Shown here in pieces: positions 1 through 64,000 of a stretch of 64,000 nucleotides of DNA (its first letter is position 1; every line of letters starts with the position of its first letter). The notes under the pieces are model-generated. The model had not been told where the DNA came from. It saw only the letters and a list, made by a program, of their open reading frames with translations, and ran no database searches. This DNA comes from Heterotrichella gracilis (taxonomy: Eukaryota > Sar > Xanthophyceae > Tribonematales > Xanthonemataceae): contig JAULBX010027495.1 of the NCBI GenBank assembly GCA_032358255.1, positions 124,001 through 188,000 of the forward strand, written 5' to 3'. Made by a program: the position numbers and the translations under genes.

Positions 1-3000
1 ACCTGATTGCTTGTACAAAGTACGAATTGTCCATCAACATCCACCAGAAATAAATGTACCTCCGGTCTCCGTGAGGCTCCTGCGGATGGCCTCCTGCAGC
101 TCCCCGTCCCCTGCATCCACCTCCTCATCGCTCCCCCTGTCATTAGGCCCCTTGCCCCAGTCCCCCAGCTTCCTCCCAAACGCAAACCCCTTGGCCAGGC
201 TCCAGTACTTCTGGCGCTGCTCTGCCCGCTGGCGCCAGTGCGTCTGCTGGCGCTGACTGCTGTTGGGTTGGCTGCCAGGCTCTTGGGATGATTCAAGCTC
301 CTGGGAGGGTGGCCCTGATTGGTCGACGTCCTCCCATTCGAAATCTTCATCGTCCTCCCCTGCAATGCATACACATTGGGGTAAATTCACATGACAGATG
401 CCAGCCTCAAAATGAGGATTCTGTTGACAGAAATGCATTGCCGCAACACCGATCGCAGTATATTGACGCATGTGAACAGCATCCAGATTCTTTTCTCAGA
501 ATATAGATACCACAGAACAAAGGTCTTTCACAGCAACACTGTTGATGAATTGCTCACAACAACATCTTATAATAAACGTGGCATACCTTCCCTTCCCACA
601 GCCACCTCAAAGCTGATCTCCACAGGCGCCACTCCAATGCCACCCACGCCACCCGGCGTCGCCCCACCAGCCACTGCAGCACCACTCTCACCACCGGCTG
701 CTTCCTCAGCCTTGGGTCCCGGGGAGGGCAACGATCCCGGCTCCAGGACATCAGTTTGCAGGATATATTCCCTCCCCTCCTCTCCTGCAATCCGACGTGA
801 GCGCACCCCATCCACGCCCCCAGCTGCAGCGTTCATTGCCTCCTTGATGCTGTCAATCTGGCGCCTGCAGGGGGTGGATGGGCTAGGGTTATTGATGTTC
901 AAATGCAGCTATTTACACCATCGTCATGCATGCGCTTGCTGTGCATGCAAAATGCCATGCGAACGCCTGATGAGCATCATTTGCCCGCCATTCACAAAGA
1001 GTTACCCATTGGTGGTCCATGGCTTACATCACTAGCGTATCCTGTTGTAAAGGGTCTAGGCCCCACCTGACCGCGCTGGCCTTGAGGAATGTCTGCATCT
1101 GGAAGGTTGAGAAGTTAAGCGGGTGGCCTGTGCGCGCCTGGAACTGCTCCCTGTTCTCCGCCATCTTTGCCTCCCTGGCACGCAGCAGCACGTCGTACTG
1201 CACAGAGGGCGGCAGGGTGGACAGGACCTCTGGGTCCAGCTCCTGCAGGAAGTGGGTGTGTGCGTGTGTTAGGGTTTAGGATGTGGCATTTGAGGATTAA
1301 GGGTTTTTGGGCGCAGAGGGCGGCAGGGTGGACAGGGACCTCGGGTTTTAGCTCCTGCGGGAACGAGGGATGGTTTAGGATGTGGCCTTTTGAGGCTTAG
1401 GGTTTTGGGTCCAAAGGGAGGCGCCAAAGTGGGCTTTATTTCCTTGGGGCAGGGGTTAGGTGAGGGCTTGTGGTATGATGGGCAAGCGCCACGATGGAAA
1501 GCGCCCTACCAGGGTTTCTACCCTGGAAGGAGAGGGTATTGGCCTTCCGTGGTATCAGCATGGGTAGGGTCTGTGAGGGTTTGCGCTAGGGCTTTGAGTG
1601 GGAGGGAAGGTATTGGCCTACCCCAGGTATCAGCATGGCGCCATCCTCGTCGCTGCTATCCTCCTCTTCCTCCTCCTCTTCCTCCCCTTCATCCCGGTAG
1701 TCCTCGTCACTCTCCTCCCCCGCCGCCTTGCCTCTCCCCTTGCTGGTTGATGGCCCAGCAGCGGTGGGGTGACCAGTGAGGTCCACCTGCACAACACAAT
1801 ACCTTCACTTATTAATAACAGAAAGTATATTTATTTATTTGTTGTTTGTTTTTGTTTTTTTGTGTTGGATAACACTGTCAATGAGTGGATGTACAGGTGG
1901 AGCATTATCAAGTAAGTGGGAAACCCATCAGCAGCAAATCGGCAACCATAATGCCAGCGTTAGCCAGACCACTGATGTCGGTGCTCAAGCATAAGCACCA
2001 ATATTATGCCATTCAATTACTCCTGCCACGCCCACCAGGCTGTTATTCCAAGCCCTAGGCCAGTAAGAAACCTACCTGTCCCGAGGGCCCAGCCCCTTCC
2101 TCCTCCTCCCACTCCATTGCCATCTGAGCAGCCAGCAGAGCATCTGCCTCCTCATTGACTGCCGGCCCCCCACCCCCCTGCGCCCTGCCCGATGGCCCAG
2201 CCGCCCCCAACTCCGCCACCTCCCTCCCTCCCTGTTGCGCTGCAGGCCCTGCCCCACCTTGCGGCTCAGTAGCCTTTCGGGGCGGCGGATTGCTAGGGTT
2301 TTCAGGCCGCGCACTGGTAGGGTTATGGGGTTGGCCCCCATGGGCTGCCACCTGCCCCAATGCATGCTGCTTGAGCCTGTTTAGGAGCAGCTTCTCGGCT
2401 GTCTTGCGCAGCTTCACCGTCTGCTGCTCCCGCCGCCTGAAACAAGAGCCAGCACAATCATGATAATGCACCTTTAACACAATTGGCCTGAGGCGCAGGG
2501 TGGGTGGCCCATGCGGTGAGTAAAGCCTCGCCCAATATATGGTCTAATCCATAACCCCTGCTCAACGCATGCATGGCGCTCAGGGTTTCAAGAGGGCCAT
2601 GGACACCCTGGATGGCCAAAATGGGGTGATATTGCATGTCATCCCATCCAGGATGCAGGGCGTTGTTGCATGAAATTGACCGTTGATCCAAAATATCAAT
2701 CGCTCACATGGCTGCATTTGCATCAAGTGCGCGCAAAATTCGGGTGCATACTGGAGTGATTGGAATATGGCACTGCCTGGCAACATGATGCTTGAGCAAA
2801 CTGGGTTTTCATGCAGGTGCATGCCTGCTGTTTAGGGTTTAGGGTTTTCGATTGAGGGATAGTCACATATCGCACCTCCTGCGCGCGATGGTGGTGCGCC
2901 GCTTGAGAGCAGGAGTGGCGCCATCAAATACAAACACAGGGCGGACACGATGGAACAGCAGGCTGCAAGGGTGGGAGTGATCATCAGCTGAATCGGAGAG

Positions 3001-3922
3001 GCCAAATGGGGAGTTTCGGCAGTGGCGCGACCATTCTGATGCAACCAAAAGCAAGTGCATTTGAAAAACATTTACTGGCATATCGGTGATGCATGCTAAT
3101 GGCAATGCAGCACCAATTTCTCTTACAGGAAATCTGCTCAGTTTGCTCTTTCGCCAGGTGCGTATTCTGCCCATACCATACCAATCACTGACCCCACTGC
3201 AAATGCAATGTCACAGGAATTGCAGATGGGTGCTTTTGCATGGTCATGAAGTTAACTTGATCTATCTGCCGGTACAGAAATGACCTCGACGCTTTCCCCA
3301 GGGTGCGGCACAACTGCTAGCCGGGTTCACTCACCGACATATGCGCCTGAAGAAGCCCAGCAGGTGTGCGTTCTTCATGACCTCCCCTTTGTCGTTACGC
3401 ATGGCCTTGAGGAACTGGAAGATCCATATGGACGCATCTGCAGCACCAGGGCGGTGTCACCACACAGAGAACAAGCCTAGACAGGTACAATCTTGTACAC
3501 AACCCACATGCCATTGCGCTGAAGCATCGCCTGGAGGCGGTGATACCAACAATCAGGCTTTCAGATACACGATCCACATGAAGAAGTTGAAGCATGTTCA
3601 GGACACAAGTACACACACCGTGGCACAACTGACAAAGGCGTATTGAACCATGCTGTGCCATGCTGGGCTGTACCAGCTGGGCTTAGTGGCAACGATGTGC
3701 ACGCCGTTGAAAATTTAGATCCTTTTGAGGCTTAAACCAGTTATTCAACAAATCTTCGTTGTGGGCACAGAGAGACACCCACCCCAGGCATGCGTATGGC
3801 ATGTAGCTGTCCATATGCATGCATATGCACCCACCAATAGCCAGACGTTTGTTCGTCAGCGCCTCGATGTTGATGCGCCTGCCCACAGGCTCCAACAGCG
3901 ACCAAAGGTTCTGAACACCCAT
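1..3922 (-). CDS. XPG/Rad2-family DNA repair endonuclease (UVH3/ERCC5-like), C-terminal part outside window
   Basis: Structure-specific 3' flap endonuclease of nucleotide excision repair; acts in the nucleus. Exons (minus strand): 3922-3835, 3437-3335, 2962-2876, 2436-2076, 1786-1622, 1242-1067, 864-587, 359-60; it continues past the left edge. Phases agree at every junction. The protein begins [12 protein letters not shown], the typical XPG N terminus. Asp30 (LAI-DAS) and Asp77 (FVFDG) match the metal-binding acidic residues of the family N domain. The spacer holds an acidic run (1660-1720) and the conserved segment [20 protein letters not shown] followed by [10 protein letters not shown], typical of plant UVH3 and human XPG. 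The last visible exon has a UIM-like [10 protein letters not shown]. The XPG-I catalytic core is not in the window. Introns hold decayed copies of the exon 5 end (about 1530-1563) and exon 6 start (about 1310-1366). The family call is very safe. Confidence 0.93.
1310..1563. repeat. Intronic decayed copies of XPG exon edges
   Basis: Between XPG exons 5 and 6, the stretch near 1310-1366 repeats the beginning of exon 6 (around 1200-1256), sharing the cagagggcggcagggtgg block. The stretch near 1530-1563 repeats the end of exon 5 with its donor (around 1609-1637), sharing ggtatcagcatgg. Runs resembling agggtttagg lie between them. The copies are frame-broken and are not taken as exons. Confidence 0.7.
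3812..3827. promoter_or_regulatory. RY-type palindrome in XPG intron 1
   Basis: Perfect 16-bp palindrome CATATGCATGCATATG, about 8 bases past the exon 1 donor. The same 16-mer occurs at 19431-19446 in BUD13 intron 1. Confidence 0.55.
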
Positions 3923-8260: not shown

Positions 8261-10306
8261 ATGGACACAGACCCTTGGCACAAGGGCTATGAGGAAGCCA
8301 AGCAGCTCGCCAATGACATACTTGCTTCAATACAGGTACATGCTTGACCCTCGGCCCCTGGAGTGTGTGTGTGTGTGTGCCACCAGCACAGCGACTTTGA
8401 TTACAGCAGTGCCTCAAATTTTCCTATGTAACCTCATTGCGCACAGAGGCCGGTGTTGTCCTTGGTATGTCAAGTGGGTTGTCGTCACCTGGCACTGCCT
8501 GTGTGCCATAGGAGCGCAACACTCGAGCAAGGGCTGGTGGGGACCCGGAGGCCTCTCGGGTCACGGCACAGGCGCGCCGCAACCTGGGGACGTTGGGCAG
8601 CAGGCTGGACGCGCTGCGCGACTCCTTGGAAGGGGATGACAACTCAGCACTGTGAGTCGTAAGGAGCTGGTGTTGGGAAACCCTTGTAGGGTATAGGTGC
8701 AGGGTTTATTGGGTGGCACTATGCCCTAGCCAGAACACTGCCGGGTGTATGGGTTGGAAGTAAATATGCACCTGTATGTGGACTGTAACGTACACACTGG
8801 GGGAACAGTTTTTCGTTACCTACCTCCCGGCCCACGTGCTATGGTGACAGGCTTTGCATGTCCATCTATGTGTTACACAAGGGCTGATCCCTGCATGTGT
8901 GTGCTTGGCGCAGCACTGAGAACGAGCGCAACCGGCGGCGCGACCTTGTGAACGCGCTCAAGGGCAGGCGGGAACAGATGCTCATGGCGCTCAAGCGGGA
9001 CCAGCACACGCAGAGCAGGTGCGCGGCTCACAGGAGCACACACACCTCACGCTACGTAGTGCATCTGGTTTGTCCTCATCGCTGCCTCCCCAGCTGTAGG
9101 ATATTGCTGCACGGCTGAAATTGTGGTCACCTAGTGCAGCTGGGTGCGGTTGTCAACACTCCTCACACACGTCTGTGCCAATGGGGACACGATGTGCACA
9201 CCAGGGCCCTCCTCACCACGCAGCACCACACCTGGGTCGCTGTCCTTAGCTTTGATCCCCCTGGAAAGAAAGAGAGAAAGGGGTTGCACAGAGGCGGAGT
9301 TAGGGAGCCACTATTCAAGCCTTGGATAACCCCTCCCTTGGCCACGCAGGGACTCGTTGCTTGGCGGGCGGGGCGAGGCCTCGGGCGCCGCGCGCGAGAC
9401 TGCGCGCACCGCTGACCAGGACAACGACGGCATTGTGCAGATGCAGCGCCACGTGATGCGCGAGCAGGACTCTGAGCTGGCTGAGCTGGAGAAGACCGTG
9501 GCAAGCACCAAGGTGGGCGCACTTCCTCCTCGCTGTGCTGCTCGCACTGGCTGCTTGGGTAGTCAGTTCCTGGACTTTGTGTTTTAAGAATGTCACTTCC
9601 AGCAGCTGTATAACACGAGTCCTTCCCACCCCACACACACACACACTCCCACAGCACAGCGCTTTGGCTGTGAACGAGGAGCTTGGCCTGCTCTATACCC
9701 TAATCTAGAAACCCCTAAACCCTACACAGTAACGCCTCCCTCCCTCATTGGCCTGCCGTAAGCCTTAAATTCCAAACCCTAAACAGTGGCGCCCACCTCC
9801 CCAACCCCCAACCCCTGCAGCACATTGCCCTGGCTGTGAATGAGGAGCTAGGGCTGCACAACCGCCTGCTGGACGAGCTGGACGAGGATGTGACGGCCAC
9901 GCACTCGCGCCTGCACACGGTGCAGCGGCGGGTGAAGGACGTGCTGCGGCGCAGCGGAGAGTGCAGGTGGGGGTGGGGAGGGTGGGGGCCCAGCGCGGCC
10001 TCGGGGGGGCAAGGGCCAAAATCCTAGCTGGGTGCCTCCGCCTACTGGGTGAGTCGCCTCTTGTGAGAATTTGCGTGTATCGGGAATGAAGACCCTTGTG
10101 ACAGTTGACGGTTGTCCGCTATTTGACTTGAATCTGTGGCATTGATTGAGCATGATGCGGTGAGGTTCAATGCATCAGCGCACACCGCACCCCTGACGTG
10201 CCCGCACCCTGCCCTGCGCCGCAGGTCCTGCCTGCTGCTGACAGTGCTCATTGGGGTGCTCCTGGCGGTGGTGGTCATAGGCTTCAAGATCGTGTTCAGG
10301 CTTTGA
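8261..10306 (+). CDS. SYP5/syntaxin-8-like Qc-SNARE
   Basis: Tail-anchored Qc-SNARE of the late endosome/vacuole fusion machinery. Exons: 8261-8335, 8512-8651, 8914-9018, 9350-9512, 9821-9966, 10225-10306; predicted 236 aa. It starts MDTDPWHKGYEEAKQLAND, like plant SYP51/52 (Trp-x-x-x-Tyr-Glu-Ala). The linker has ENERNRRRDLVNALKGR. The SNARE motif runs from DNDGIVQMQRHVMREQD through ALAVNEELGLHNRLLDELD, with the central-layer Gln in the QD pair, and is followed by a C-terminal hydrophobic anchor (LLLTVLIGVLLAVVVIGF). Intron 4 carries a second copy of the exon 5 start. Family certain; SYP5 subfamily by resemblance. Confidence 0.93.
9650..9693 (+). repeat. Extra copy of SNARE exon 5 start inside intron 4
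   Basis: About 41 bases repeat the acceptor and first codons of exon 5 (9817-9860) with roughly 80% identity. Most of the third-position changes after the first residues are silent, so the copy still reads ALAVNEELGL before hitting a stop. CCCTAAA-like runs follow at 9708-9725 and 9772-9783. It could be a decaying duplication or a rarely used alternative exon. Confidence 0.8.
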
Positions 10307-15387: not shown

Positions 15388-15871
15388 AACAGAGCATAGA
15401 ACAACAGGGCACAGAACAATAACTGAAGAAAAGGTGTCCAAGCCAGCGCTGGCATTACTCCCACTGGCGTGGATGCTCAAGTGAATAGACCTCGCAGGGG
15501 AGGGCATAGTCAACCAGCCACACAGGGCAAGACAACACGGGTCCTTTTCAGTCTTAGTGCACGAGGTCTCCCTGTTCAAAACTTGACAAATGAAGCAGTA
15601 CATACAGATCCACCGTTTGTACAACCCGAGCGGGCCCTTAGGCGCCCTGTTGGCACACAGCACCACCCACCCCTTCCACGGCCCCAACAGCGCCTGCAAG
15701 GTATGGGTGCACCCACTTGGCAGTGCGCAACAGGCACCCGCTGCATCGAAGCCTGGAACTGGCATGCATTTCAGGCACCCATGCACTGCACCTTCCGCGC
15801 CGCCCCCTGGCATACACACGGCCACAGGGGCGTGCCACCGAACCGCCATGCCGCACCCATGCGGCATCTGG

Positions 15872-15962
15872 CACTCGCCTGAGTACTTGGGATCACATGC
15901 GCACATCCCACTGCCGCCCTGTTGCCTCCATATTGAACACGTCGCGCTCCACCCTATTGCCC
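15872..15962 (-). repeat. Decayed copy of BUD13 last exon beyond the stop
   Basis: Downstream of the BUD13 stop codon, this stretch repeats the terminal exon (about 16104-16196). Shared pieces include the acacgtcgcgctc/acatgtcgcgctc block and the cacatgcgc region. It is a diverged tandem duplication of the gene's 3' end, with no open frame kept. Confidence 0.7.
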
Positions 15963-16107
15963 GAGCCCACCCCCATTCTCCCCGCCGCCGCTGCACTCCC
16001 CGCGCCAGCGCCTGCCACTCACACACCCCCATGCACCTCCACAGCCCCGCTGCAGCACCGCATGCAAGCCCACATGCACCTGCCAGCCCCGCAGCGCCGC
16101 CGCGCAC

Positions 16108-19100
16108 TCACATGTCTTCCTGGGACCACATGCGCGCCTCCCGCTCCCGCCCCGCGGCCTCGTTCTTCATCTTGAACATGTCGCGCTCAAAGCCGTTGCT
16201 GCGGTCCACGCCGTCCCAGTGGCGCCCTGGGCGGATGCCGTAGCGGTTGATGGGCGGGCCCACCTTGCGGCGCAGCCACGAGTGGGGGGGGACCTGCTGG
16301 GGGATGATGAAGCCTGCGGAAGAGGGGGGTGGTGCGTAGGTTGGGCTTGAGGTGTGGGGTAAGTGGTGGAGGGGTGTGGCGTAATTGGGGAAGGTGAGTG
16401 GCATTTTTAGGCGTACAGCCATGAAAGGGCGACATGTAATGACATGGTCCATTGTAGGGTACTAGTACTAGCGCCCTACAAGGCAAAACAATATTCTGAG
16501 CTGCTGAAACACAAACGTTCTAGAACGGAGACACCATTTTTGGGGGTTTCAAACAAGGAAATGAAATGTCATTGTACTTCAAGAAAATTCATTACTTATT
16601 ACAGTGTCTGACAATAGAGGCTAATCACGTAATTATCAGTCTATGTGCAGTTCTTTCTCGCTGAATGCGCATTGCTAGACCACTATGTGGCTATTCCACT
16701 AGCATATATAGATTTTGAGAGTGGAAAAACGATGCAAGAGTATAACCAGGCCGCGTCCCCCTCCCCACCTGACTTCTTCATCCCCTCTGCGTTGTGTGCA
16801 TCCAGCGCCACTGGCCCCAGGTCAGCGGGGTCCCTCTTCTTCACAAGCCCCGCCATGGGGTCGCCCCACCGGTCCCGGTCGCGCATCAGCTGGTCAAGGT
16901 CAGCGTCGTCCCTGCGCGGAGGTGTAGGGTTTAGAAGTAGGGTTTGTGGACAAGGGTTTAGGGTGTGAGGTCACAATAGCATTCCTGGCCACGTATGAGC
17001 TGGTCGAGCCTGTGGTGGTGAGGGGCGTCAAAATACCTGTCTTGTCCCAAACTTCATAAAAATTCTGAGCAATCCAGATTTACTGACCGTTTCATGTACT
17101 AATTAAAATATGAACACAAGGTAACAGCCCTGACACACACACTTTCCCCAGTACAGCCAGTAAAATCCCCCTTCCCTGCCACGCACTTGTAGCGTGCAAA
17201 GGGTTTTGCTGCCTCCGCTGCCATCTCCTGTGCGCGCTGTTCCGCCTCGCGCCGCTGCTTCAGCCCGCCGCCCCACTCCAGGTTGGCCTCGCTCTCGAAA
17301 TCGTCCTCCTTTTTCTTCTTCTTCCTCGCCTCCCTGAACTCCTCGGCGTCAGCCAGGCGCTTGCCGGACTTGTCACGGTACACCTGACATGGAGGGTACA
17401 AATGAGGGGTTTTACTTGAGCTTTGTTGCGGTTTTGCTTGGGCTTTGATACGTATTTGGGAGCAATTCACGCCTCCACTGGGACACCATGATCCCCCCTC
17501 CTGGGGATGGCATACAGTTAAAGTGAAATGCATTCGAGCCGATTGCCTCCTCATGTGCCCGAAAAGCCACACATCTGGGACACCAAGTCCACAATTCCAT
17601 GATACTTAAAGAGTGAGCCATGGGGTGCATACCGTGTCCGCATGCCGCCCCGTGGTGTCTGCATCCAGCGTGGCAAAGCGCGCCTTCTCCGCCTCCCGCT
17701 TGCGAGACATCTCCTGCATCAGGTCCTTGCCGGTCACCATACCCGCAGTGGTGCCGTCAGACATTTTGGTGCTGCCTGCACACAGAAATAAGGGTCCAAA
17801 TCTTAGGGTGTCCTTTCCTATGCATCTCTTGCTGAGGGTGGCGGTAGAGCTGTTAGTTCTGGGAAAGTGGGCTTTGGCAATAACAAGGGGTAGGTGTAGG
17901 GTATCCAATTTTGGTGGATGTCGGGGATGCGCAGGTCCATCCCGGTGACCACACCCGCGGTGATGCCATCAGACATCTTGGTGCTGCCTGCACACAAGTG
18001 TTGGGTGGGTGGGTGGGTGGGTGGGCACATGCATTCCAGGGGTGAATAGCATTGAGCCTTGCGCAAGCGGCCCCAAGCTGCTCCATCAGAGTGTTGCCAT
18101 CACGCCTCTTGGCACACCATGAATGGATGAAATAGATTTTTGTTTGTATTTCCCCTATGCACCCACCCAATACCTAAACTGACAGGCTGCCTGGAGTGAC
18201 CACATGCAACGAGAACAATGTAAGAGGCAGGAAATCAGGCCACGTGCATGTGCCATGCATGTAGGGAGTAGATCATTTTGGCGTGTGTCCAATGCATGCG
18301 ACAAGGATGCGTACCAGTCTGGCCATGTCTGGGTGCGGGGCCTGGGCTGCCCCCCCGCCGCGCCTTGCGGGGAGGCGACAAATCCCCGCCGTCTAAGTCA
18401 CGCTTCCGCCGGGGAGGGCTGGCATCCTTTCGCCGGGGCAGCGACAGGTCGGGGCTGTCATGGCGTCCACGCCGGGGTGGGGAGTTGTCGGGGCTGTCAT
18501 GGCGGCCGCGGCGGGGCGGCGACATGTCGGGACTGTCATGGCGCGCGCGCCGGGGCGGGGAGTTGTCGGGGCTGTCATGGCGCGCGCGGCGGGGTGGCGA
18601 CATGTCGGGGCTGTCGTGACGTCCGCGCCTGGGCGGTGAGTTATCAGGGCTGTCATGGCGGGCGCGCCTGGGCGGAGAGTTGTCAGGGCTGTCATTGCGC
18701 CCCTTGCGCGGTGGTGACAGGTCACCTGCGGGTGCCCCCCGCCCAGTCACCCAGCCACTCCCGTCATCTCTTTGGCGATAGTACCCCTCGCGCTCCTGAG
18801 GGAGACATGCATATCAAATGACAATAATTGCAAATGCAGTAATATGGGTCCGGGTCCTGGATATGCGCTGAGGGATCTGAAATTTGCAACGCTGCATGTG
18901 GTGTTGAGGGAAAGCGCGACATGCGATGAGGGGGCGCGGTAATAAACGCCATGGCATTGCGGGTGCAATGGCATGGGCGAGCGTGCTGTGCAGCGCCACT
19001 GCCTGTTCCATGGTCCTACCTCTTCCAGCTGGCGCTTGAAGAATTCCGCCTCCTCAGGGTTGGCCACTACAGGAGCCTCTGCAGGGGGTGTGATACCACA

Positions 19101-20590: not shown

Positions 20591-22332
20591 TTACCATCCA
20601 ATACCCTTGTTTGTCAGCTCGTCAGCTGCCCTGTCCACACGCTCGTCCTTCCATCCCAGTTGCATTGCTGCGGCCTCAGCAGCATCAGGGAACTGGCCCT
20701 CAATGTCCCTCCCCTGCTCATTCAGCTGCCGCATGGCTGACTCGGTGGCGGGGTGGGCCTGGCCCTCACGCTCGTGCACGTCACCACAACTGCAGAGGGG
20801 GGAAAGGGGTCTCATCACAAGAAATCAAATATGTTCCATATTTATAGTCGATGCAATTGCGTTATTATAACAAGCATGTGACAAGCCTTGTATAATATGC
20901 ACTACAGAATTTGCAAAGATAGTCGGCATGAGACAGGGTACGAAAGCAACAGCAGTCATTGAAAGCAGGTTTTGGGAACTATCTTGCCATATATGTGGCT
21001 GACTGATACAGAATAAATGACAGTGTGAACTATTGGGCTGGGCACGGTAGAAGAATCAGTAATAACCTGCATGCATGGCATATGGCGATGTCTGCAGCTT
21101 GGAAGCCTTCTTCTGTCATCTTTCTTGCACAAGCATGTGCCACCCTTACCCCTGTGATCCCGCTGGGAAACCCTCTTTGGTCCGCTCCACCCCATGCTTG
21201 ATTGCCTCCCCAGTGGACGATACCCCAGAGCGCGCCAGCTGCTCGGCATCCACCCCCAGCGTCTTCACATCCTCCCCCACCTCGCGAACGTACTCAGATG
21301 CCTGTCATGCCATGGATCAGTGGTCACCAGTGAGCGCTGATGGGTTTAGGGTTTAGGGTTTAGGATTAGGGTTCAGGTTTAAACTATTGCATATGTGGTT
21401 ACCAGTGATTTTTAAGGGTGCATGGTGTGGGCAAGGCTCACCAGGGGCTTGTCAGGAATCACAGCGTGCAAATGCATCACAGCTTCCTCTCCTCATGCAT
21501 GTGGCATAGTAGGGCATGGGTCTCAACCCCGCATGTGCAAGCACAAACATTCCCAAACCCACTGCACTTTGCCAACATCCTCCAGCACACCTCATGCGCA
21601 GTCTCACTCGCTCCTTGCATCACACCCTTCACGTTCCTCACCAAGCTCCCTGCCATGTCCTTGACCACATGCTCTGCCTGGCCCACCACACCCGCGCCAG
21701 TGGTAGGGGACACCTGGGGCCGGGTGGTGCGGCCATGGTTCTGCAACCACAACTGATTTTTGTTTCGATTGTAACAGGTGGCATGTGGATTTGGCGCACC
21801 GATACCTTGCTTGCACTTGTGAATGACTTGCATACACTATTAGACCCTGCTCTTGCTGCCATACAGCACAGCTCTACCACACCAAATCAGTGCTTTTGTT
21901 TCATCCTTCCCCACAGGTTCTGAAATTTGAACAACATGTTTCAACTCTCCAGAGCTGCGAGGAGGGAAAACAAAAGCACCGATCTGGTGTGGTAGAGCTG
22001 TGCGTATGGCAGGCAAGGACAGAGTCTATGCAATCCAGTCACAAGGGCGAGCAATTGCCCTATGCGGGTGCGTACACCCTGACCCTGCCAACAATGAGGG
22101 GACACCCTTGAGCTACCGTAAATCACCAGAGTACGCCTGTATATAGTTGTAATGGAGGTTCTTGGTGCAGATTGGCTGGACCACTCACCGAGTCACTGTA
22201 GGACCTCACACCAAGCCTCCCATTGGCTGAGCAGTTGGATGCAGCCCAGCAAAGCGCTGTGAAGTCTGTTGGATTGATGCCTGACTGCCTAAGCCTCAGC
22301 TTGGCATGGAGCTTTGAGCAGCGCTGAAGCAT
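20591..22332 (-). CDS. LEA-like small protein with mitochondrial-type presequence
   Basis: Unrecognised at family level. Exons (minus): 22332-22189, 21740-21591, 21301-21150, 20789-20591; predicted 214 aa, phases consistent. The first exon (MLQRCSKLHAKLRLRQSG) is Arg/Ser-rich and lacks acidic residues early, as in a mitochondrial presequence. The rest is a hydrophilic amphipathic helix pattern resembling LEA proteins: AEHVVKDMAGSLVRNVKGVM, EYVREVGEDVKTLGVDAEQL, EAIKHGVERTKEGF and EREGQAHPATESAMRQLNEQ. LEA-type function (membrane or protein protection under drying) is inference. Intron 1 harbours an inverted repeat and intron 2 a TTTAGGG run (21341-21362). Confidence 0.6.
21867..22002. mobile_element. 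Hairpin/MITE-like inverted repeat
   Basis: The arm at 21867-21903 (cacagctctaccacacca...) is the near-perfect reverse complement of 21963-22002, with a loop of about 60 bases. It sits in intron 1 of the LEA-like gene. Arms of about 38 bases with few mismatches, and no coding capacity, fit a short foldback element or a structured intronic RNA. No target-site duplication was established. Confidence 0.6.
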
Positions 22333-23851: not shown

Positions 23852-26800
23852 CTAGTGCGCCAGCACCGCCGCGGAGTCAAACAGCCAGTCTGTGCCGATG
23901 GCCGACATGTTGACCAGGGTGGAGGTGGCGCGCGGCATGCCCGCCAGCACCCTCGCCTCGCGTATGTAGTAGCTGAAGGTGGAGCAGCCCAGGCCCACGA
24001 ACTTGTCCGCCTTGAGCAGCACCAGGAGGTCAACCAGGGCCTTCTGCTCAGAGTGGAGCGCTGCGGGGTGGGATGGAGGGGTGGGATGGAGGGTGGGGAC
24101 TAGGGTGTGGGGCGGTTTGGGATGGAGGAGGGGAGCGGTGCAGGATGGGGGATGGGGGGTGGGTATATGTGTACATGCAGCGGGGGAGGAGGCAGGCGCA
24201 CAACAAAACGGGGCAATTGGGTCATACGCTGCATTTCTGCTGCGATGTGAAGTGATGTGCAAGCAGCAAGGGGTTCATTACCACAGCGTCACAGGATAGG
24301 TTGTAGGGTCCAAGGGGTCCTACCTCCTAGCTGCGTCATGGGGATGTACCTCTCCTTGTGTAGCACGTCGCTGCACACACCGCGCTTCTGGAGCCTGTCG
24401 CGTGCACCCGCCATGCCTGCACACAGAGCAACAGGGCTGAGATGGGTCCTGGGGCCCGTGGGGGGGTCCACACAGCGGCAACGGTAATAAGATAACAAAA
24501 TAGGCTTTTTGTGATATTATTGTTACCCTTGATAGCGGTGGTGGCACACAAGCACAGGGGCAGTGCAGCAGGGGGTGGCGCTCATGCACACTGGGGCGGG
24601 GAACATGTGCCTGCGGTGTTTGCTGCACGCGACAGCAGGGGTATACTCTTTTTTCTCCCGTTCTTTATTCTCCCGTTCTTTACTAAGATTATTTAGTATA
24701 TTACTTTACCCCTGGCCCCAGCCCCCACCTGTGTTCTCCCCATCAGCATACGACATGATGCCGCTGGCCACATACAGGGGGGTGGCGGAGTCAAAGCCTG
24801 CGCCCTTCATGCTATCCAGGTACATGCCCCACATGGCCTGCAGGAGAGGGGTGCGTGGCGGGGCTTTTGGAGGGTGTACACGAGGCTGCCATGTGGTTGG
24901 CAGTGGTGGTGGTGAATGCAATGTGGCCTTGGTGGTGGTGGTGATGGCGGTGGTGGTGGTAGTGGTGGTGGATGCAGTGTGGTCTTGGTGGTGGTGGTCT
25001 GGTAGCTGGATGCACATCAGCCCCTTCAATCACGTTCAACCACGTTTACCTTCTCCCCACCACAACATACTGCTGCCCCTCAACTTCAGCCACCCAATCA
25101 GATTCCACCCTCCACCAACCCATGGAGATGTTGTGCAATCCCTTCCTTCCTTCCACCCACCCACGCACTCACACACACACATCCATCCCACCTACCCCCG
25201 CTCCTCCTTCAGCCCACCAACCACGTTGTGCCAGTCCCCCCATCCCTCTCCACCCGCACATCCCCCCCTTCCGCACCACACCACCTACCACCACCCACTT
25301 CCAGCCCGCCGGTATCCCATGCCATCCCTCCGCATCCCTCTCCACCCGAAAGCGCCCCCTCTAATCCCTCAACCACACCCCCTTCCACCACAACCCACCT
25401 CTAGCCCGCCCACCACATTGTGCCAGTCCTCGGCATCCTTCTCCACCCGCAGGTGCACCCCGTTGAAGGGCCGCTTACCCCCCTCTGTTAGCCGCGCCAC
25501 AATTGCGTCCGCCATGGCGTGCATTTGCGGGGCAAAGGGCAGGTTGCGCGTCACCTCGCCAATCAGTTTCAACTTGCTGTGGGGGACAGGGAGGGGGGAG
25601 GTGGGTGAGTGGTGAATGGTGGCATGGGGTGTGGTGGTGGTGGTGGTGGATACATGGGCATGGTGGTAGTGGTGCATGGCATGGCGTTCAAATGCTAGGC
25701 GAGGGCAGCGTTTGGGCTTCTCGTGCATCAGCTTCCCTTGAAATCTCGCAGTAGATCCTCCCAACCCACCTGCGGGTGCGCAGCATGAAGAACGTGCACG
25801 GCAGGTCCACCACAATGGTGTCCACAACCCTAGCAGGGTTTGCCCGGATCAGCTCCGCCGCGTGCCCCACCACCGCATGCCTCAGCAGCTCCATGAGCCT
25901 GCTCATGCGCATGTTGGCCTTGTGCACGTCGTGCAGCTTGGTGGCGGCCCAGTCGGGCAGCGAGGGCTGGTCGTAGATGGGGAAGGCGGTTTCGGGCTCC
26001 GCCAGGTCGGGGAACTCGGGCACAAAGGGGGTCTGTGGGCAGGGGATCGTGGTTTAGGGCTTAGTATTCTAAGCCTGTAACCGTAATGCCTGGCCACACC
26101 AGTTGCCCGCATGCAAACGCACCACCAGGCTACTACAATGCAAGCTGTAATGTATGATAATAATAACAATGATAATAAAATGAACAATAGAAAATGCAGG
26201 CTATGACCTATCATATTATCAGCAGTACTACCGTACTACTGCTACTACTTTGAATACTAATGCAGGCTACGACCCAAATCCTATTCGGCATCACCTTGTG
26301 CACGACCAGCCCATGCTGCGCCCAAAATGCGATGATCTGCTCCACATCAAGCACCGACTCCACCGGCGCTGCCTGCCACTTTGCCTGGTTGAGCTCCTTG
26401 ATGATGCTGGTCTTGTCGGCAAAGGAGCTGCGCTGCGCGGCGGGTGGCAGCACGATCTCCGACCCCGTCATGGCGGCCAGGGCAAAGGCTGAGATGTGGC
26501 TGTACTGCTGGTTGATCAGGCCGGTGCAGGCGGTGTACCTGAGCGGGAACAGGTGAGGGTTTAGGGTGAAGGTTTAGGGTTTAGGGTTTAACAGGGCGTT
26601 GCAGGCGGTGTACCTGGGCAGGAACAGCATAGGGTTAGATTTAAGGGTTTAGGCTTTAGGGTCTATCAGGGCGGTGCAGGCAGTATACCAGAGGGGTACA
26701 GGAACGGGACATCTACAAGGGCGGGTGCATTGTAGACCTCCTGGGGACCCCCGCATGGACCAAGGAGTGGGAGGTATGGCCACTCAAGCTTGGCTTACCC

Positions 26801-40205: not shown

Positions 40206-43200
40206 ATGGGCGTGCGTACCGGTAGACAGGCAGCGGAGGGCAGCTGGCATGACCACATGCAGGCATTCACAGTGACATGCATCCTGGCCATGATCCTTGC
40301 CTTGGCCCAGAGCGCCTCAACCACGGTGGTCCTCCCCAACGTCACCTCTTCTGGATATATACCCATCAACCATACGGAGGGCAGTGCTATGTTCTACGTG
40401 TATTACGAAGCTGGTGAGGTGGATGTGGGAGACACCACACCCATCGTGCTGTGGCTGCAGGTATGCATGCAAGCCAGTTTTGGCCGTATATAACCCGCTG
40501 CGTAGGCTGTGTTGTAGTTGTGCTCGTTCTTGTGTCCCCATCCCTCCCGTATACGTGGCCCCCTTGACCCTACCCAAGCCACCATGCCCAGGCAATGAGT
40601 GCATTTCATGGACCTGAAAGCAAGCAAGCAAGCACCTTAAAACGTGATGTAGATATTGGTTCAGTACAACTGCAGCTGAACAACCATCATGAAACCCCTG
40701 CTGACAGGACTGTAAACTGTGCGTAACCCTAAACCCTGGCCCCACCTTTCCACCCACGAACCCTAGTAGGACCCTACTCTATCCTATAACCCTTGTGAAA
40801 CCCTACCATGACCTGCTTCTGCACGCCGCTGCAGGGCGGCCCTGGCTGCGCCAGCATGTTTGGCAACCTGTATGAGCTGGGACCCCAAAGGGTTTCTGCC
40901 AACCTGACCCTAAACCCTAACAAGGGGTCCTGGAACCGGGCAGCGGGTCTGCTGTTCATCGACCAGCCAGTGGGCACAGGCTTCAGCCCGGAAGGTAGGG
41001 TTTCACCTAGGGTTTCAGCTTAGAAGGTAGGGTTTCCTGGGGTTCATCGACCAGCCGTTGGGCACATGGTTCAGCGGGAGGTAGGGTTTTACCTTGGGGT
41101 TCAGCCAGAGGTAGGGTTTCAGCCCGTCAGACGGGCTCCACACAGGCACACCCTGAGCAGGTCATCTTATTATTTTATAAACACCCTCATCTATCCCCAT
41201 GTGGTTTTATACATGTATCCTATAGGGTGTCACCTGGTATGATGGCTTCTGACCTGGGTACCCCGAGCCCTCAATCATACGCCCTAACCCTTACAGCTGA
41301 ACCCTGAACCCTGTACCAACCCTGTTGTAGGGACGGGGCGCATCCCTGATGACGAGATGCAGATGGCCGCTGACCTGTACACCGGCCTGCAAGGGTTTTT
41401 CAGGGAGCACGAAACCCTAGCGCCCCGCCCGCTGTTCATCACCGGCGAGAGCTACGCAGGGAAGTACATCCCCTCTATAGGTGAACACGCATAGGACCCC
41501 TTGGGAGATGTTGGAAAGATTTTCGAATGCATCCCCTCTCCTCCCCCTACTACCCCTGGGTGATGTCTATATAGCAGCCGGATAGCGCCACCTATATATT
41601 TTCTCTCCCCCAAAGGGGCCTTCTTCCTGATGTTCACCATACATGTGATTCCTCCCCTGCACCAGGCCATTTCATATTGCAGCTCGAGGCGGCGGCTGGC
41701 AGGAGGAACACGCACATGGCGCACTCCAGGCGACTCCCCCTTGGCTTCGATCCCCAGCCCCCCTTGTTCAATCTCCAGGGCTTGGCGATTGGGAATGGCC
41801 TCACAGACCCGATCAACCAGGTGCGGCAAACCCTGCATTTTTAAATTCAAACCTTTGGTTGGCATGCAACCGAGCAGTTTCAGGCACCAAGGTGGCGATA
41901 CATGCCCTGCAGGGTACACATGTGTTTCTTTTAGAATTTATTTATGCTCCCCAAGGGGTCCTGCACTCCACACCCTACCACATCGTGCCATGTGTCCCCA
42001 CATGCGTAAGAAAAATATAAATCATTATTAGGTGACAACGAATGTTGCATACCAGCTCTTCCAATAATTTTTCATATGCAACTGAAACCCTCAATCTTTC
42101 GCATTGCTGTTCAGGTTGCGACCAATGCCGATGCAGCATACTTCCACGGCCTCATCGGTCCCCTGCAGCGCCTGTGGGCAATGCAGCACCAGCTGGAAAT
42201 ACAGCAGCTCATCGCGGCAGGTGGGGAGGATGACGGGGGTGTGCATTAGGGTTTTGATGGGGTGAGGGTTAGGGTTTAGGGACATGACAGAGCGGGGTTT
42301 GGGTTATGCATTTGGGGGCTTCTTTCTATTCCAACTGCACTTCAACACTACCTTTGTAGCACAACTCAATGTATCAGTAGGGTTCAAATTCGATGCACGC
42401 GCCGGCCATACTCTGTGGAGCATGTAAGGGTGTGGCCCATAAGAATACCCTGGTTGGACCCTGCCGTAGGGTTTTGGGAGCAAGCGCACATTGAGCGCAG
42501 CCAGCTGCTCAAGTTCATCATTGAGAACAGCGCCATTGCCACACCATTTGACATACGACGGGCGGCCGACTATGACTCCACCCTGGCAGTGGACCGCTAC
42601 CTCAACCAACCAGAGGTCAAGGTGGGTGCAGGCGGCTGTGTGGGGGTGAGGGGGTAATGTGCATGTGCATGTGCCGTTGCGGCGTGTCCGCACAATCGTT
42701 GTAAAGAGTACAAGGGAACGTTCATGAGGAGGGGGTTGCACACACCCTTGACGTACAACGGGCGGCTGAATTGCTACCTCAACCCACTAGAGGTCAAGGT
42801 GGGTGCAGGAGGCGGTGGGGGCAGGGGTGGGCGCTATCAACATGAACAAATCAGGGGATCAGGGAGAGATGAAAAGTTGATGCCAAACCAAGAGGATTCA
42901 TCTTTGCATCTCTCCCTGCGTGGTGAAATCACCCCCCACCACCCTCCGTTTATAATTGTGCCCCTGTGGCCGCAGGAGTACCTTGGCGTGCCTCATTCCA
43001 TCACGTTTGAGGGGTGCAGCGAGCGGGTGGGGCGCGTGCTTGGCCCTGATGTGATGAAGAGTGTGGAGTACCTGGTGCCGGACCTGCTGGCGGCATACCC
43101 AATGCTGCTCTACCAAGGTGGGCGAGGCTGCTAGGGTGTAGGGTACAGGGCGGCACTAAGGTGGCTTAGGGGGAAGGATTGAGCATTGAGGCTCATATCT

Positions 43201-44732: not shown

Positions 44733-49329
<4,597 letters not shown>

Positions 49330-51818: not shown

Positions 51819-51823
51819 TGTAA
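51819..51823 (+). terminator. TGTAA poly(A) signal candidate, PCD
   Basis: TGTAA about 165 bases after the PCD stop, at the very start of the duplicated exon copy. Confidence 0.4.
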
Positions 51824-51896
51824 ATGGATGGGCTAGCAGTCCACAGGAGGCACCTGAGTATAGGCCCAGGTGGCTGTGGGAACACCCACAGGCACA
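51823..51896 (+). repeat. Decayed copy of PCD exon 4 end downstream of the stop
   Basis: Repeats 51575-51646: the gatgggct, gagta and ggtggctgtgggaacaccca blocks align. It lies about 170 bases past the stop, so it is a tandem duplication of the 3' end with no function in the reading frame. Confidence 0.8.
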
Positions 51897-59701: not shown

Positions 59702-62680
59702 ATGAGCAAACGGAAAGCGGCGGAGCAACTGACCAAGGTATTGCCCAGCACCGCCTCTGTGCATACATATACATCCAGCAGCTGAATTCTAGAAGCACTC
59801 TTTGCGACAGTCGAGCCACACCAGCGGGCCTTCACATGCATGCATATGCGGACCGGCATGCCCCTGCAAGTGCTCCAAGCCAACAGCCTGTGTGGCCACA
59901 ACCCGCCATATGGCATCATGCATCACATGTGTGACGTTTAACCCACTCATCCACTCTGAGCTACTCCTGGAATGGAGCTGCATGGCACTCATACGCCTAT
60001 CCCACACCCGCAGGATGAAGGCGGGCGGAGGGACACCTTTGCGCGCCACCTCAAGGCCCTCAACAAGCAGTTCGCAGAGTGAGTGCAACAACATTCACAG
60101 CGATGCAGCACGCACAACCCACACTCCACCGCACAGCTCAACCCACATCCCTTGCACCAGTGCAGCGATACTGACCTAGTTGCCCGCTCCATCTGTGCAC
60201 GCGTTGCCCCATGTTGACCTAGGTTGGCTTCATGTACCCATCAGGCTTCAATCGCGGGGTGACGTTGCGCAGCCCTAGCTTGAACCCTCGCCGCCCACCA
60301 TGGGGTTTACCCAGGCAATACGTTTACCCTACAGGCCCTAGCTTTCGTCCTCACCGCCCACCGAGGGGTTCAATCACGTCATCCACTTACCATAATAGAT
60401 TCCCTAGCCTATACCCTGACCCTGCAGGTGGGTTCAGGACCAGGCAAACGACTGCCTGGGCCAGCTGTGGACAAATTGCGCCATGGACCATGCGTGCCGC
60501 CGCAACCCTACGTGCTACACCCTAAATTGCCTTGTCCCCTAGCTGGTCAACCCCTAACACTAACCCTAATCGTGCTTTTGCCCAGGTGGGTTCAGGACCA
60601 GGCCGACGACTGCCTGGGTCAGGTGTGGACTGATGGGGTCATGGACTATATGCGCCATGCCAACCAGCTACTTAAGGATTTTGATGACGTGGTGAAGGAG
60701 GAGGCAAGCAAGGGGGGAGAGGAGGGCGGGAGTGGAGGGGAGGCAATCGGCAAGCCTGCACCGGCGCCAGGGGGTGCGTGCACGCACCCGCCGTGCTTTA
60801 CTTCAGTTTACTTCAGTATATTGTTGATAGTGGCCCCTTAACTCCGCCTTTGCGCGTCCCCCTTCTTTTTCTCTCGATTGTTTTAAACATGCTGTCAATA
60901 ATCATATTATAGGGCCGGTGTGTGCATGTAGTTACAGGGTGCCATTACCGCAGGCGCATTCCCCATGCTAGGCGGGACCCCCGCCTCCGCCCCAGCCGCA
61001 CCCCCTACCCTCTCCTTTGCCGCACCCCCCACGGAGACACCTGGCGCAACCTTCGGCACAAACGGGGCCGCCCCGCCTTTTGGTGGGAATTCCTTCGCCG
61101 CCGAAGCCACACCCACCACCCCGCTTTTCGGCGCAAAACCCGCCGCCGCGCCCGCCAGCATCCCCACCACCCCGATTTTTGGCGCAAAAACAGCGCCCGA
61201 CGCCGCGCCCCTCTTCGGCGCACCCCCCACCGCCCCCACCACAGCCGCAGCACCCACCGCAATGTTTTCCTTTGGGGGGGCAGCATCCACCCCTGGGATT
61301 GGCCAACAGGGGACGGCTGCAGGGGGTGCCTCGACTGGGGGCTTTGGTGGGAGTGGCATGTTTGGGAGTGCCGGCGGGGGTTTTGGGGGTGCTGGCGGGG
61401 GTGCCACCATGTTTGCGGGGATAGGCGGGGGGGGCACCAAGCCAGGGGGGTTCAACTTTGGGGGCCCTGGCGCCAACTCCTTCTCTGCAGGTAAGCATCA
61501 GGCTGAATGATAAACAGATTAAAATAAATATGACTTAATTGTTCCACCTGTGCCCCGCTGGCAAGACTGATAATTTTGATTTCATTCTTTGAATTTGAAT
61601 GAAGCAATTGCAAATAATGTTCAGAATCTAATTTTCGTTTCACCTGTGCCCGCCCTGCGCACCTAATCCTAACATCACCGGAGGTTTCCTGACTACCTAC
61701 ACACAAGACCCTATATGATTTTCTTGTAACCACTTGCTGCAAAAAGCCCTGCCGCAGGGTTTCTTGACCCTTTACATGTTCGCAGGCACCAGCGGGTTCA
61801 GCTTTGGCGCCACGCCCGCCCCCACCAATGGCAGCAAAACGCAAGGGGGTGATGGTGAGGATGAAGAGGAGGAGGAGGAGGAGGAGCCAGCCACCACGGT
61901 GCGCCACCTGGCGTTTTGTGCACTTGACTTCCTTATGTGTGCCCTATTACATGTCGCATGCCACAGTGGCCAGATGAGCAGGGTGCGCTACATGCTTTGT
62001 GTCAGGCAGTCAAGTCTTGGCTGCATGTATAATATCTTGCTCTGGCAAAATTCATCACCATAGCATCATACATGAGAGCGCTGATCATAATTGAGAGCAT
62101 TGAGCTATTCCTGCATCCACACAGGTGGAGGTTAAGGCCCAGAACCTGCTGTACAAGGAGAAGGCCACCCTGCACTTGCATATCAAAAGGGCCTGGGTTC
62201 CTACGTTTGACCGTAGCGAACCCTGTAAATGTGCACACCAACCTCACCACAATCATCACATTATGGAAATCCTTGTTGAGCACCTTGAATTGACCAACTT
62301 TGCCTTTTCAGGTGGAGGTAGAGGCCCAGAACCTGCTCTACAAGGAGAAGGCCACGCTGCACTTCCAGGTGGACGGCAAGTGGACCAGCCGGGGCAAGGG
62401 GACGCTAACACTGCGCAGCGACACGGGAGGGGGGGCACCCTTCGTGGTGTTCACCTCAGAAAACGGGCGCATTTCTCTCAATGCCCGGCTGTTCAAGGGG
62501 GTGAGCATCAAGCAATTAAACCCCGAGAAGGGGTCCGGCCAGATGCTGACCTCGCTGTATGTGGTGGAGGAAACCGAGGAGGGTAGTATACAAAAGTTGC
62601 AGCCGGTGATCCTACGGGTGGCGAGTGGGGAGAAGGCGGTGGCGTTCATTGACGCTTTCACCAAGCACGCGCCCAAGTGA
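59702..62680 (+). CDS. Nup50-like FG nucleoporin with RanBD
   Basis: Nuclear pore basket/transport protein that binds Ran and importin. Exons: 59702-59737, 60014-60078, 60586-60773, 60954-61490, 61786-61898, 62312-62680; predicted 435 aa. It starts MSKRKAAEQLTKDEGG, like the Nup50 importin-binding N terminus. A helical segment (WVQDQADDCLGQVWTDGVMD) follows. Residues about 110-285 are FG/GFG-repeat (FGAKPAAAP, FGGAGGG). Then an acidic run, and a C-terminal Ran-binding domain from VEVEAQNLLYKEKATLHFQV to the end. Acceptor at 60953 chosen over 60936 because it keeps the frame. Introns 2 and 5 hold close copies of the next exon's start. Confidence 0.9.
59833..59850. promoter_or_regulatory. RY-type motif in Nup50-like intron 1
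   Basis: cacatgcatgcatatgcg, about 95 bases inside the first intron. Confidence 0.5.
60421..60490 (+). repeat. Near-identical copy of Nup50-like exon 3 start in intron 2
   Basis: Repeats 60580-60640 including the cag acceptor; 41 of the first 45 bases match. In frame it reads WVQDQANDCLGQLWTN. No donor follows, and a stop comes in the frame later. Two older-looking repeats of a ccctagct...ccgcccacc unit precede it (60282-60400). Confidence 0.88.
62120..62180 (+). repeat. Near-identical copy of Nup50-like exon 6 start in intron 5
   Basis: About 52 of 57 bases match 62308-62370, including the cag acceptor. It reads VEVKAQNLLYKEKATLHL. Use of this acceptor would keep the frame for 30 codons but lacks the RanBD end. 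Confidence 0.88.
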
Positions 62681-62719
62681 AGATTTTCGGAATCTTCGGA
62701 ATCTGGGGTTGGAGTTGGC

Positions 62720-62724
62720 TGTAA
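62720..62724 (+). terminator. TGTAA poly(A) signal candidate, Nup50-like gene
   Basis: TGTAA 40 bases after the stop codon. Confidence 0.45.
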
Positions 62725-63785
62725 TGGGAGTGGGGATTGGCTGTTGTGGCGGTGGGGGTTGGCTGCAGGGCCATTGGGGATTGGTTGCACTGCTAGAGGA
62801 CTGGAAACTGGCAATTGCAGCATTGATTGTGTTGGGGTGGTGTTGATGAAATTTGCGTCAAGAGTCAAAGGTGCCGGGATTGATTGCACTGCCGACGGGG
62901 AAGCATTGTTGTTGTTACTGACCTATAGCGTGACGTTGCTCTGTACCAGTTGCCCTCATTCCCTATTGGTGTGATTCAGAAGGGGGATGGAAGCTAGGAT
63001 GGACCATGCACCAGGTGGATACAGTTGGTTTGAGATGGGGAGTGAAGCCTCGGAGGAGTCCTTAGGATAGCTAGGCTACTGTAGCGTCACCACCTGCTTC
63101 ACGCCTGACACTAGTGTGGTCCACACAGTAATGCGGGACAATCATTGACTGCGTTCAACGCAACTTGCGCATTGGTATGAATTGTGCACGGCCTGCCATC
63201 ACATGCGAGCCATACATTTCAACTGATTGGTGCTATACAGCCTTACACGTGCTTTGAGCAGAGTTTGTAACATCACTGCTTATACCGTATTTGTGACTGA
63301 TGTCCCAGCCAGTCATGGATGATACCCATGCCACTCGCCCTTGCAGGCACAGCCGACTTGGAATGGCCTTGAAGGCCGCCTGATGATCCTGATTCAGAAG
63401 CTGTTTCACCAGTACACTACTTTTAAAAAGCTTTTAAAACTAGTGTGTTGTAGTAGTACTGTAACAGCTTTGCACCCCCTTGCGATATTCGTTGAACCTT
63501 GGAAAAGCAAAATAGAAGACAAAAAACGGCACGACTGCCCCAAACACATGTGGGCAGCGACCACATTCAAATTGATTGAATATGAGCGACCCAGTGTTGA
63601 CGCTCAGCTTCCTGAGCAATCACACGCTGCAGGGCCCAACCGCCTGACAATGTTGGCCAGCATGCCTGCCACGCTGTTTCGTACCACTGAAATGAATGAA
63701 AGTAATACTTCTATGTTCCACGCACTCTCAGCAACTGGGCCTGGCAGCGGCTGCAGGGCCTGGTCCCGGACCAGCCCGGTTAAGT
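62725..63785. other. Region without recognised gene
   Basis: A possible exon follows a cttgcag acceptor at 63347 (QPTWNGLEGRLMILIQKLFHQ), but nothing identifies it. It may belong to a gene starting beyond the window. Confidence 0.3.
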
Positions 63786-64000
63786 GATGATCATGCATGG
63801 CCATGCCCTACTGCTGATCCAGCTAGCCACTAGCTTGCTGATCATCTAGCTGAATGGCCATGATCACTGCACCATGATGATACATCTAGCCACTAGATCA
63901 TCTAGCTGATTGGCCATGATCGCTGCAGCACGATATTTCATCTAGCCATGATCGCTTGCTGATCATCTAGCTGAATGGCCGTGATCGCTGCTGGTCCATC
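63786..64000. repeat. Tandem repeat, unit about 55-65 bp, cut by window edge
   Basis: Units begin tgatcatctagctgaatggc and recur at about 63839, 63894 and 63960, with gatcgctgc and catctagcc blocks in each. The array is rich in the palindromes tgatca and ctag. It runs off the right edge, so copy number is unknown. Confidence 0.85.

Follow-up and report, generated by a model that had tools for sequence, protein, structure and literature searches.

Why should introns carry copies of the edges of their own exons, and why should telomere-like repeats lie beside them? The question is raised by a stretch of 64,000 nucleotides from Heterotrichella gracilis (contig JAULBX010027495.1, positions 124,001 to 188,000), referred to throughout as the window. 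A preliminary description had named ten genes of the window in which an intron holds diverged copies of the adjacent exon's end or start, often with TTTAGGG- or CCCTAAA-like runs between, and had ascribed them to one ongoing process that copies exon borders into introns. Analysis of the window and of two further stretches showed that local duplications concentrate at exon-intron borders, within the window and outside it, and that telomere-like tracts are associated with both the borders and the duplications.

Local duplications at exon-intron borders

The sample comprised 314 kb of the 68.5-Mb, 903-contig genome: the 64-kb window, C2:1-200000 and C46:100001-150000, C2 and C46 being long contigs seen in a pattern search for telomeric repeats. 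Counts below refer to this sample unless the window or the genome is named; genome-wide evidence consists of pattern counts, which include matches overlapping within one tract and some tandem copies. Genes were modelled with a hidden Markov gene finder that started from a generic GT-AG consensus and was both trained and applied on the same 314 kb. It converged on a donor NAG/GTRNG and an acceptor TGCAG/G (slash at the splice point) and found the genes to be intron-rich, with 461 predicted introns (median length 280) and internal exons of median 146. The genes of the preliminary description were recovered, some copies being modelled as short exons.

Self-alignment of the window gave 56 direct and 8 inverted repeats less than 2 kb apart, palindromes making up 7 of the 8 inverted. 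At distances up to 600 bp there were 41 direct repeats and no inverted ones, so that copies do lie in the orientation of their source, as had been described. Over the whole sample 157 direct and 2 inverted pairs lay within 600 bp; each repeat family contributes several pairs, which are hence not independent events. The excess of direct over inverted repeats was found mostly below about 400 bp, except for repeat arrays of the window and for C2 repeats 2-5 kb apart. Some window pairs are accounted for by plain coding repeats within exons (18431-18702, 31979-32479).

Repeats were grouped into clusters, alignments shorter than 30 bp being discarded and the best pair alone deciding the class of a cluster: exon-intron (EI), intron-intron (II), exon-exon (EE), exon-intergenic (EN) or intergenic. 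Of the 92 clusters left, 90 had arms spaced 55-280 bp apart. Identities ranged from about 68 to 97% and arm lengths from 30 to more than 100 bp. Spacing of the best pair per cluster was bimodal, at about 70-115 and 145-220 bp, with modes near 95 and 180 bp and a valley at 115-145 bp. In clusters with a single pair, the unduplicated spacer had a median of 38 bp in the class near 95 bp (n = 33) and of 110 bp in the class near 180 bp (n = 31). The longer class was considered as a triplication with a decayed middle copy; this found no support, a middle copy being found in 3 of 29 direct searches and in 3 of 29 reverse-complement controls.

EI clusters, in which one arm contains exon and the other is wholly intronic, numbered 52 of 92, against 24.6 ± 4.2 under random placement, whereas II clusters (8 against 23.2) and intergenic clusters (5 against 21.2) fell below expectation and EN clusters matched it (3 against 2.8). 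The EI total is probably an undercount, because some EE cases look like intron copies modelled as short exons. EI to II counts were 10:2 in the window, 34:6 in C2 and 8:0 in C46, and the 15 youngest clusters (at least 88% identity over at least 35 bp) comprised 10 EI, 4 EE, 1 EN and no II. A recognisable copy of the neighbouring exon edge was present in 43 of the 461 introns. Enrichment of copies at exon borders had been set beforehand as a test of the preliminary description, and it is what the 314 kb display.

Because an exon arm decays more slowly, a simulation of visibility was run. Arm-filler-arm insertions of the observed sizes were placed uniformly and lost if the splice site was not regenerated; intron and copy then decayed neutrally and exon under constraint, and the result was searched with the same BLAST. 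The simulation was confined to introns of at least 80 nt and aligned the first 2,400 of 4,920 placements, and at least 5 nt of intron beyond the border were required for EI. The simulated EI:II ratio was 544:1044 (0.52) over all ages and about 277:386 (0.72) with old ages only. The observed 52:8 is 9-12-fold above this. Counted like for like, 37 of 47 border events keep at least 5 nt of intron, and the resulting 37:8 is still a 6-9-fold excess, approximately, giving an overall range of 6-12-fold.

Telomere-like tracts at intron edges

Tracts of TTTAGGG/CCCTAAA type, likened to the telomeric repeat by their sequence pattern, are abundant at internal sites. A tract was defined as a run matching (CCCTAAA)n over 14 nt with at most 2 mismatches on either strand. 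Such tracts made up 2.14% of the bases in introns, 0.29% of those between genes and 0.08% of those in exons; 19 control units of equal composition averaged 0.13% in introns and stayed at 0-0.3% throughout the intron profile. In introns of at least 200 nt, tract density was 5-7% in the first 40 nt past the donor and about 5% at 20-60 nt before the acceptor, falling to 0-2.2% deeper than 60 nt. The edges of 86 introns held 1672 tract bases, compared with 873 ± 101 and a maximum of 1191 in 2000 within-intron rotations. For the 53 introns without a detected duplication, the edge load was 870 against 494 ± 75 when rotated (maximum 737). All three sampled stretches showed this concentration at intron edges. 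Simple repeats of GGT type (GTGGTGG and its rotations) were likewise 5-7-fold denser over the first 60 nt of introns than in intron interiors.

Both orientations were common past donors. Before acceptors CCCTAAA was dominant and TTTAGGG was near zero within 30 nt, a scarcity to be expected if TTTAGGG is selected out there, because it contains AG. Across the genome, AAACCCTAAA, a 10-mer of CCCTAAA type, occurred 243 times at 3-33 nt after AGGTGAG and 55 times in the reverse order; for TTTAGGGTTT, of TTTAGGG type, the counts were 345 and 80, so that telomeric 10-mers of both types stood after AGGTGAG 588 times and before it 135 times. AAACCCTAAA followed by TGCAGG was found 1081 times and the reverse order 672 times, a comparison blurred by TGCAGG being donor context too. 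Proximity of telomere-like runs, which the preliminary description had also offered for testing, was therefore seen at the intron edges of the sample and, by pattern order, genome-wide.

Tracts also go with duplications. Among introns of at least 120 nt, 92 of 376 bore a tract, and overlap with a duplication was found in 35 of these 92 as against 38 of the 284 without one (odds ratio 4.0, p = 1e-6). Tract density in spacers and in the intron parts of arms was 5-6 times that of other intron sequence. Tracts were present in 18 of 66 spacers of at least 14 bp (12/28 in the class near 95 bp, 6/34 in that near 180 bp).

Loci in the window and anatomy of the copies

Each of the ten genes named in the preliminary description had at least one pair in the self-alignment. 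The loci of the window are listed with strand and percentage identity of the arms.

1200-1324 and 1311-1422, minus strand: XPG_N gene, exon start and acceptor side duplicated, 75%; the first arm is 43 nt of exon (exon 1067-1242) and 82 nt of intron
9652-9691, plus strand: SNARE gene, copy of an exon start with CAG, 166 bp upstream of its source 9818-9857 (3 nt intron, 37 nt exon), 82.5%; telomere-like runs in the spacer (9652..9857)
12554-12608, minus strand: GDSL/SGNH gene, exon end and donor copied to 12459-12514, 84%; TTTAGGG-like run in the spacer
15871-15949 and 16104-16188, minus strand: BUD13, last conserved part of the exon and its diverged copy past the conserved C-terminus, 74%
17720-17784, minus strand: BUD13, exon start and acceptor copied at 17932-17996, 87.7% over 65 bp; TGCAG retained in both
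21342..21381, no strand assigned: example of a telomere-like tract, (GGGTTTA)n, TRF scores 52 and 57, in predicted intron 21302-21590
25203..25460, minus strand: O-FucT-like gene, exon end copied twice into the intron, 82.5% (spacing 192) and 73.6% (spacing 91)
26510..26702, minus strand: O-FucT-like gene, acceptor-side duplication of period 75, 81-85%; telomere-like runs inside the unit
26813..26951, minus strand: O-FucT-like gene, donor-side tandem duplication with abutting arms, 78.7%; units end in CCCTAAA-like runs
36264..36586, minus strand: module gene, clustered copies at spacings of 62-155 with telomere-like runs, 70-91%
37022..38085, minus strand: module gene, exon-edge units in arrays of period 108/94 and 127 bp, the units containing TAGGGTTTAGGG-like sequence; neighbouring pairs about 77-89%
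40954..41120, plus strand: serine carboxypeptidase, duplication of 41 nt of exon end and 42 nt of intron, including the donor and a TAGGGTTT-like intron start, 84.3%
42596-42644, plus strand: serine carboxypeptidase, exon end and donor copied to 42773-42821, 89.8%
46831..47072, minus strand: NO66/JmjC-like gene, acceptor-side triplication at spacings of 81 and 172, 75-82%; TTTAGGG heptamers inside
47724-47799, minus strand: NO66/JmjC-like gene, exon start and acceptor (38 nt exon, 38 nt intron) copied to 47816-47890, 80.3%
51596-51636 and 51856-51896, plus strand: PCD gene, last exon part copied past the stop codon, 80.5% over 41 bp
53131-53151 and 53211-53231, minus strand: IscA-like gene, second short pair, 95%
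53353-53402 and 53499-53548, minus strand: IscA-like gene, exon-end copy, 78%
60425..60649, plus strand: Nup50-like gene, copy of an exon start with CAG, 158 bp upstream of its source, 85% over 67 bp; homology ends at the acceptor CAG
62122..62367, plus strand: Nup50-like gene, copy of an exon start with CAG, 187 bp upstream of its source, 91.5% over 59 bp; homology ends at the acceptor CAG

Pfam matches above cut-off were obtained for nine identities, PCD included (XPG_N, SNARE, O-FucT, Bud13, GDSL lipase, Peptidase_S10, JmjC_2, Pterin_4a and Fe-S_biosyn); the module gene was outside the scan, and the FG-nucleoporin match of the Nup50-like gene was weak, under the cut-off. Rfam gave no match within the window. 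Copies beyond stop codons had been reported for two genes: that of PCD is as described, while the BUD13 pair is present but most of both its arms (15871..16188) were modelled as exon by the gene finder.

The 55 EI and EN events divide into 25 at acceptors, 22 at donors, 7 internal to exons and 1 at a stop codon, so that the 47 border events are direct duplications of exon sequence that include a splice-like site. Homology into the intron was wholly absent in 8 of these 47. It stopped at the splice site despite 91-97% exon identity at window 62122-62367 and at C2 181168, 189606 and 191005, and some young cases (C2 189606 and 181168) have the order exon edge, telomere-like filler, exon-edge copy. 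A sharp arm end at the splice site as a universal rule was rejected, since arms end within 5 nt of it in 12 of 47 border pairs and run on in 29.

Differences between exon and copy amounted to 12.6, 11.4 and 20.5% at codon positions 1, 2 and 3. The copies therefore evolve without coding constraint, about 12% being due to the unconstrained copy and the remainder to synonymous change in the exon. GT or AG was retained in 38 of 43 copies; the figure for exon dinucleotides is 73.7% (p = 0.017), which hints weakly that spare splice sites are kept. Spacing showed no preference for reading frame (remainders of 0, 1 and 2 on division by three in 12, 21 and 14 events); this neutrality, with divergence of 11-13% at positions 1 and 2, gives no support to the copies as functional alternative exons. 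No copy abutted the opposite splice site (within 5 nt) in the 47 border events, and the copies were accordingly rejected as intron births. Existing introns appear to lengthen rather than arise anew. Intron lengths had a small peak near 80-100 nt beside the main one near 300; multiples of 95 bp were not seen in the histogram, judged by eye.

Several other observations concern the sampled DNA. In the module gene, consecutive predicted exons at 37107-37614 encode near-identical AATYWKLCRRHFFMNPAQ-type modules with telomere-like pieces between them, and are possibly exon-edge copies turned coding modules. The BUD13 region at 18431-18702 has a 39 bp repeat seven times over, arginine/serine/proline-rich in one frame. 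Large imperfect palindromes (about 250-290 bp) at 21807-22054 and 56793-57073 could form long hairpins. A predicted intron contains, at 60829-60875, a dispersed motif of 46-47 bp that recurs in at least 39 other genomic places at 83-98% identity, with weaker copies at window 9264-9312 and in C2. A gene family in C2:1-10000, which by eye resembles leucine-rich-repeat genes, has relatives of 69-77% identity on many contigs, and one predicted intron there holds another dispersed motif of about 55 bp. A light-harvesting exon of C46 matches photosystem I antenna proteins, mostly of Lhca3 type.

Origin of the copies and comparison with known systems

These data suggest that breaks recur at exon-intron borders and are repaired there, and that introns gain length at their ends. 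We would give an even chance to the proposal that the junctions are recurrent sites of staggered breaks, whose repair would copy the stretch of 30-100 bp that separates the nicks and would often leave filler, sometimes telomere-like. Two opposite-strand nicks, near the splice site and about 45 nt into the exon, would produce a break with long overhangs. These would be filled in, plausibly, to judge from published work, by CST-Pol alpha, the machinery by which telomere ends are completed as well, and filler or telomeric repeats would be added or captured. End joining would then yield exon edge, filler and exon-edge copy in direct orientation, which is the structure observed. With one splice site in use, the other copy would turn into neutral intron, and the intron would grow inward from its edge. 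An RNA:DNA hybrid of intron RNA ending at splice sites, or chromatin changing there, would suffice to target the junctions. Fill-in of a staggered break with end joining is in keeping with direct-only orientation, overhang-sized arms and non-duplicated filler; joining CST-Pol alpha fill-in and telomeric insertion into one mechanism is an inference. A fuller version is rather less likely: in this lineage the junctions would be physical break hot spots, perhaps at the ends of intron RNA:DNA hybrids, repaired by telomerase and CST-Pol alpha, with introns lengthening inward in quanta of about 95 or 180 bp and shedding spare splice sites.

Several findings weigh against repair of breaks aimed at junctions. 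EE clusters were not depleted (24 against 19.6 expected). While exon borders are the source in 47 of the 55 events, 7 exon-internal pieces were also copied and miss the splice border altogether. Of the 47 border events, 29 have homology that extends into the intron (p ≤ 0.02, each compared with 100 random intron positions), as plain tandem duplication would give. The bimodal spacing has no explanation in the proposed model. The expectation that telomere-like runs often lie between copies holds for part of the spacers, 48 of 66 having none. Telomerase extension of 3' ends would put the TTTAGGG strand in continuation of the left arm and CCCTAAA before the right arm; among 14 spacer tracts inspected by eye, 9 were of CCCTAAA and 5 of TTTAGGG type, with no clear polarity towards the arms, which may speak against simple telomerase extension. 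Some duplicated units contain the tract, which may therefore pre-date the duplication and act as a fragile site. A link with transcription is weak: event density correlated with coding-model score (rho 0.40, p = 0.011, 40 genes) in the strongest of four tests, and this would suit a transcription-linked cause or could reflect better gene models. Gene models were predicted from sequence alone and fuse neighbours in places, one window model covering the O-FucT, BUD13 and SGNH genes. Finally, no individual insertion event was observed in this one genome. In a genome search with one region (window query 60400-61900), no second haplotype was found to serve as an empty site, nor, for one intron region, a close paralogue (best 74% over about 240 bp). 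The single process first envisaged is supported in part, as regards border targeting and the association with telomere-like tracts.

Rather unlikely, and yet the best-surviving alternative, is that the edge tracts are kept by selection as splicing or chromatin signals, and that this fragile, slippage-prone DNA secondarily causes tandem duplications spanning the nearby exon edge. Candidate roles for the tracts are a branch point or pyrimidine tract before acceptors, G-runs after donors, and telo-boxes. Such selection would suit the edge tracts of introns without a detected duplication, the dominance before acceptors of CCCTAAA, which is free of AG, the tracts inside some duplicated units, and the retention of splice dinucleotides in 38 of 43 copies rather than the expected 73.7%. 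However, both orientations are common past donors, in the sample and genome-wide, just 92 of the 376 introns of at least 120 nt have a tract, and the tracts are of uneven length, from 14 nt to 35 nt or more. Moreover, the 48 tract-free spacers have to be set beside events that are edge-biased overall.

It is improbable that tandem duplication is random everywhere, with exon-spanning pairs staying visible longer through their conserved exon arm and copies inside exons being purged. Exon arms do evolve more slowly, and homology enters the intron in the 29 of 47 border pairs already noted. Even so, the simulated 544 EI to 1044 II is far from the observed 52:8, or 37:8 like for like, and the 6-9-fold excess persists even with old ages only. 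The 24 EE clusters, against 19.6 at random, give no sign of purging within exons, and the edge tracts are not predicted.

Introners or other transposons with long target-site duplications are a very improbable source, even though arms around an unduplicated insert resemble such duplications. Arm length varies from 30 to more than 100 bp, and the spacers form no dispersed family in the 314 kb, 0.03% of intron bases having at least 3 distant matches. In the genome search, the 1.5-kb query 60400-61900 was matched elsewhere only through the dispersed motif of about 46 bp, and the spacer 60492-60582 within it was unmatched, among the 40 of 42 candidates that were scored. An assembly or gene-model artefact is hardly credible: gene models are predicted, some copies are modelled as short exons and some neighbours are fused, but identities of 68-97% and divergence free of coding constraint would not be usual for assembly error, three separate stretches agree, and the genome-wide order test is independent of gene models.

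Repair of breaks at the junctions, if it is the cause, would link splicing geometry with DNA breakage and telomere-type repair, and would account for a supply of cryptic splice sites. The general questions concern the way in which introns grow and the reason for mutation to respect exon borders; with copies in 43 of 461 introns, break-repair models of intron evolution can be tested on numerous events that differ in age.

Among the titles and abstract openings covered, most subscription journals lying outside that coverage, none was found to report copies of exon edges within introns together with telomere-like tracts. The nearest systems are compared here on the portions of the papers cited. 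CST-dependent fill-in and end joining at breaks with 49 bp 3' overhangs gives tandem duplications (PMC8355091). These are alike in direct orientation and in an overhang-sized duplicated length (49 bp in one test there), and the machinery, that of telomere C-strand fill-in, may be listed as a further likeness. Breaks there were made by Cas9 nickases, whereas here they would be natural, at exon-intron junctions and often with filler or telomere-like tracts.

Introner elements (PMC9860276) are alike in their mass effect on the introns of one genome and unlike in that the 314 kb yielded no insert sequence held in common. Intron gain by tandem genomic duplication or staggered-break repair (reviewed in PMC3443670) has duplicated exon sequence, splice-site duplication and direct repeats at introns in common with the present copies. 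In classical AGGT intron gain, however, the new intron lies between two copies, while none of the 47 copies here abuts the opposite splice site.

Telomeric repeats are also inserted at mammalian breaks, sometimes with target duplication (PMC2246262, PMC7215372). The duplication is found in a minority there: 4.6% of 130 rodent and 16% of 25 primate loci, and 4.5% of 66 horse loci plus 3% complex cases. Short internal telomere-like tracts, sometimes with a duplicated target, are common to both systems. Human telomeric insertions are intronic as often as chance would have it (31%; PMC7215372), unlike the tracts described here, whose density in introns is about 7 times that between genes and which are heaped at intron edges. 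Duplication by break repair is known from other systems; what would be unusual here is its aim at exon-intron junctions.

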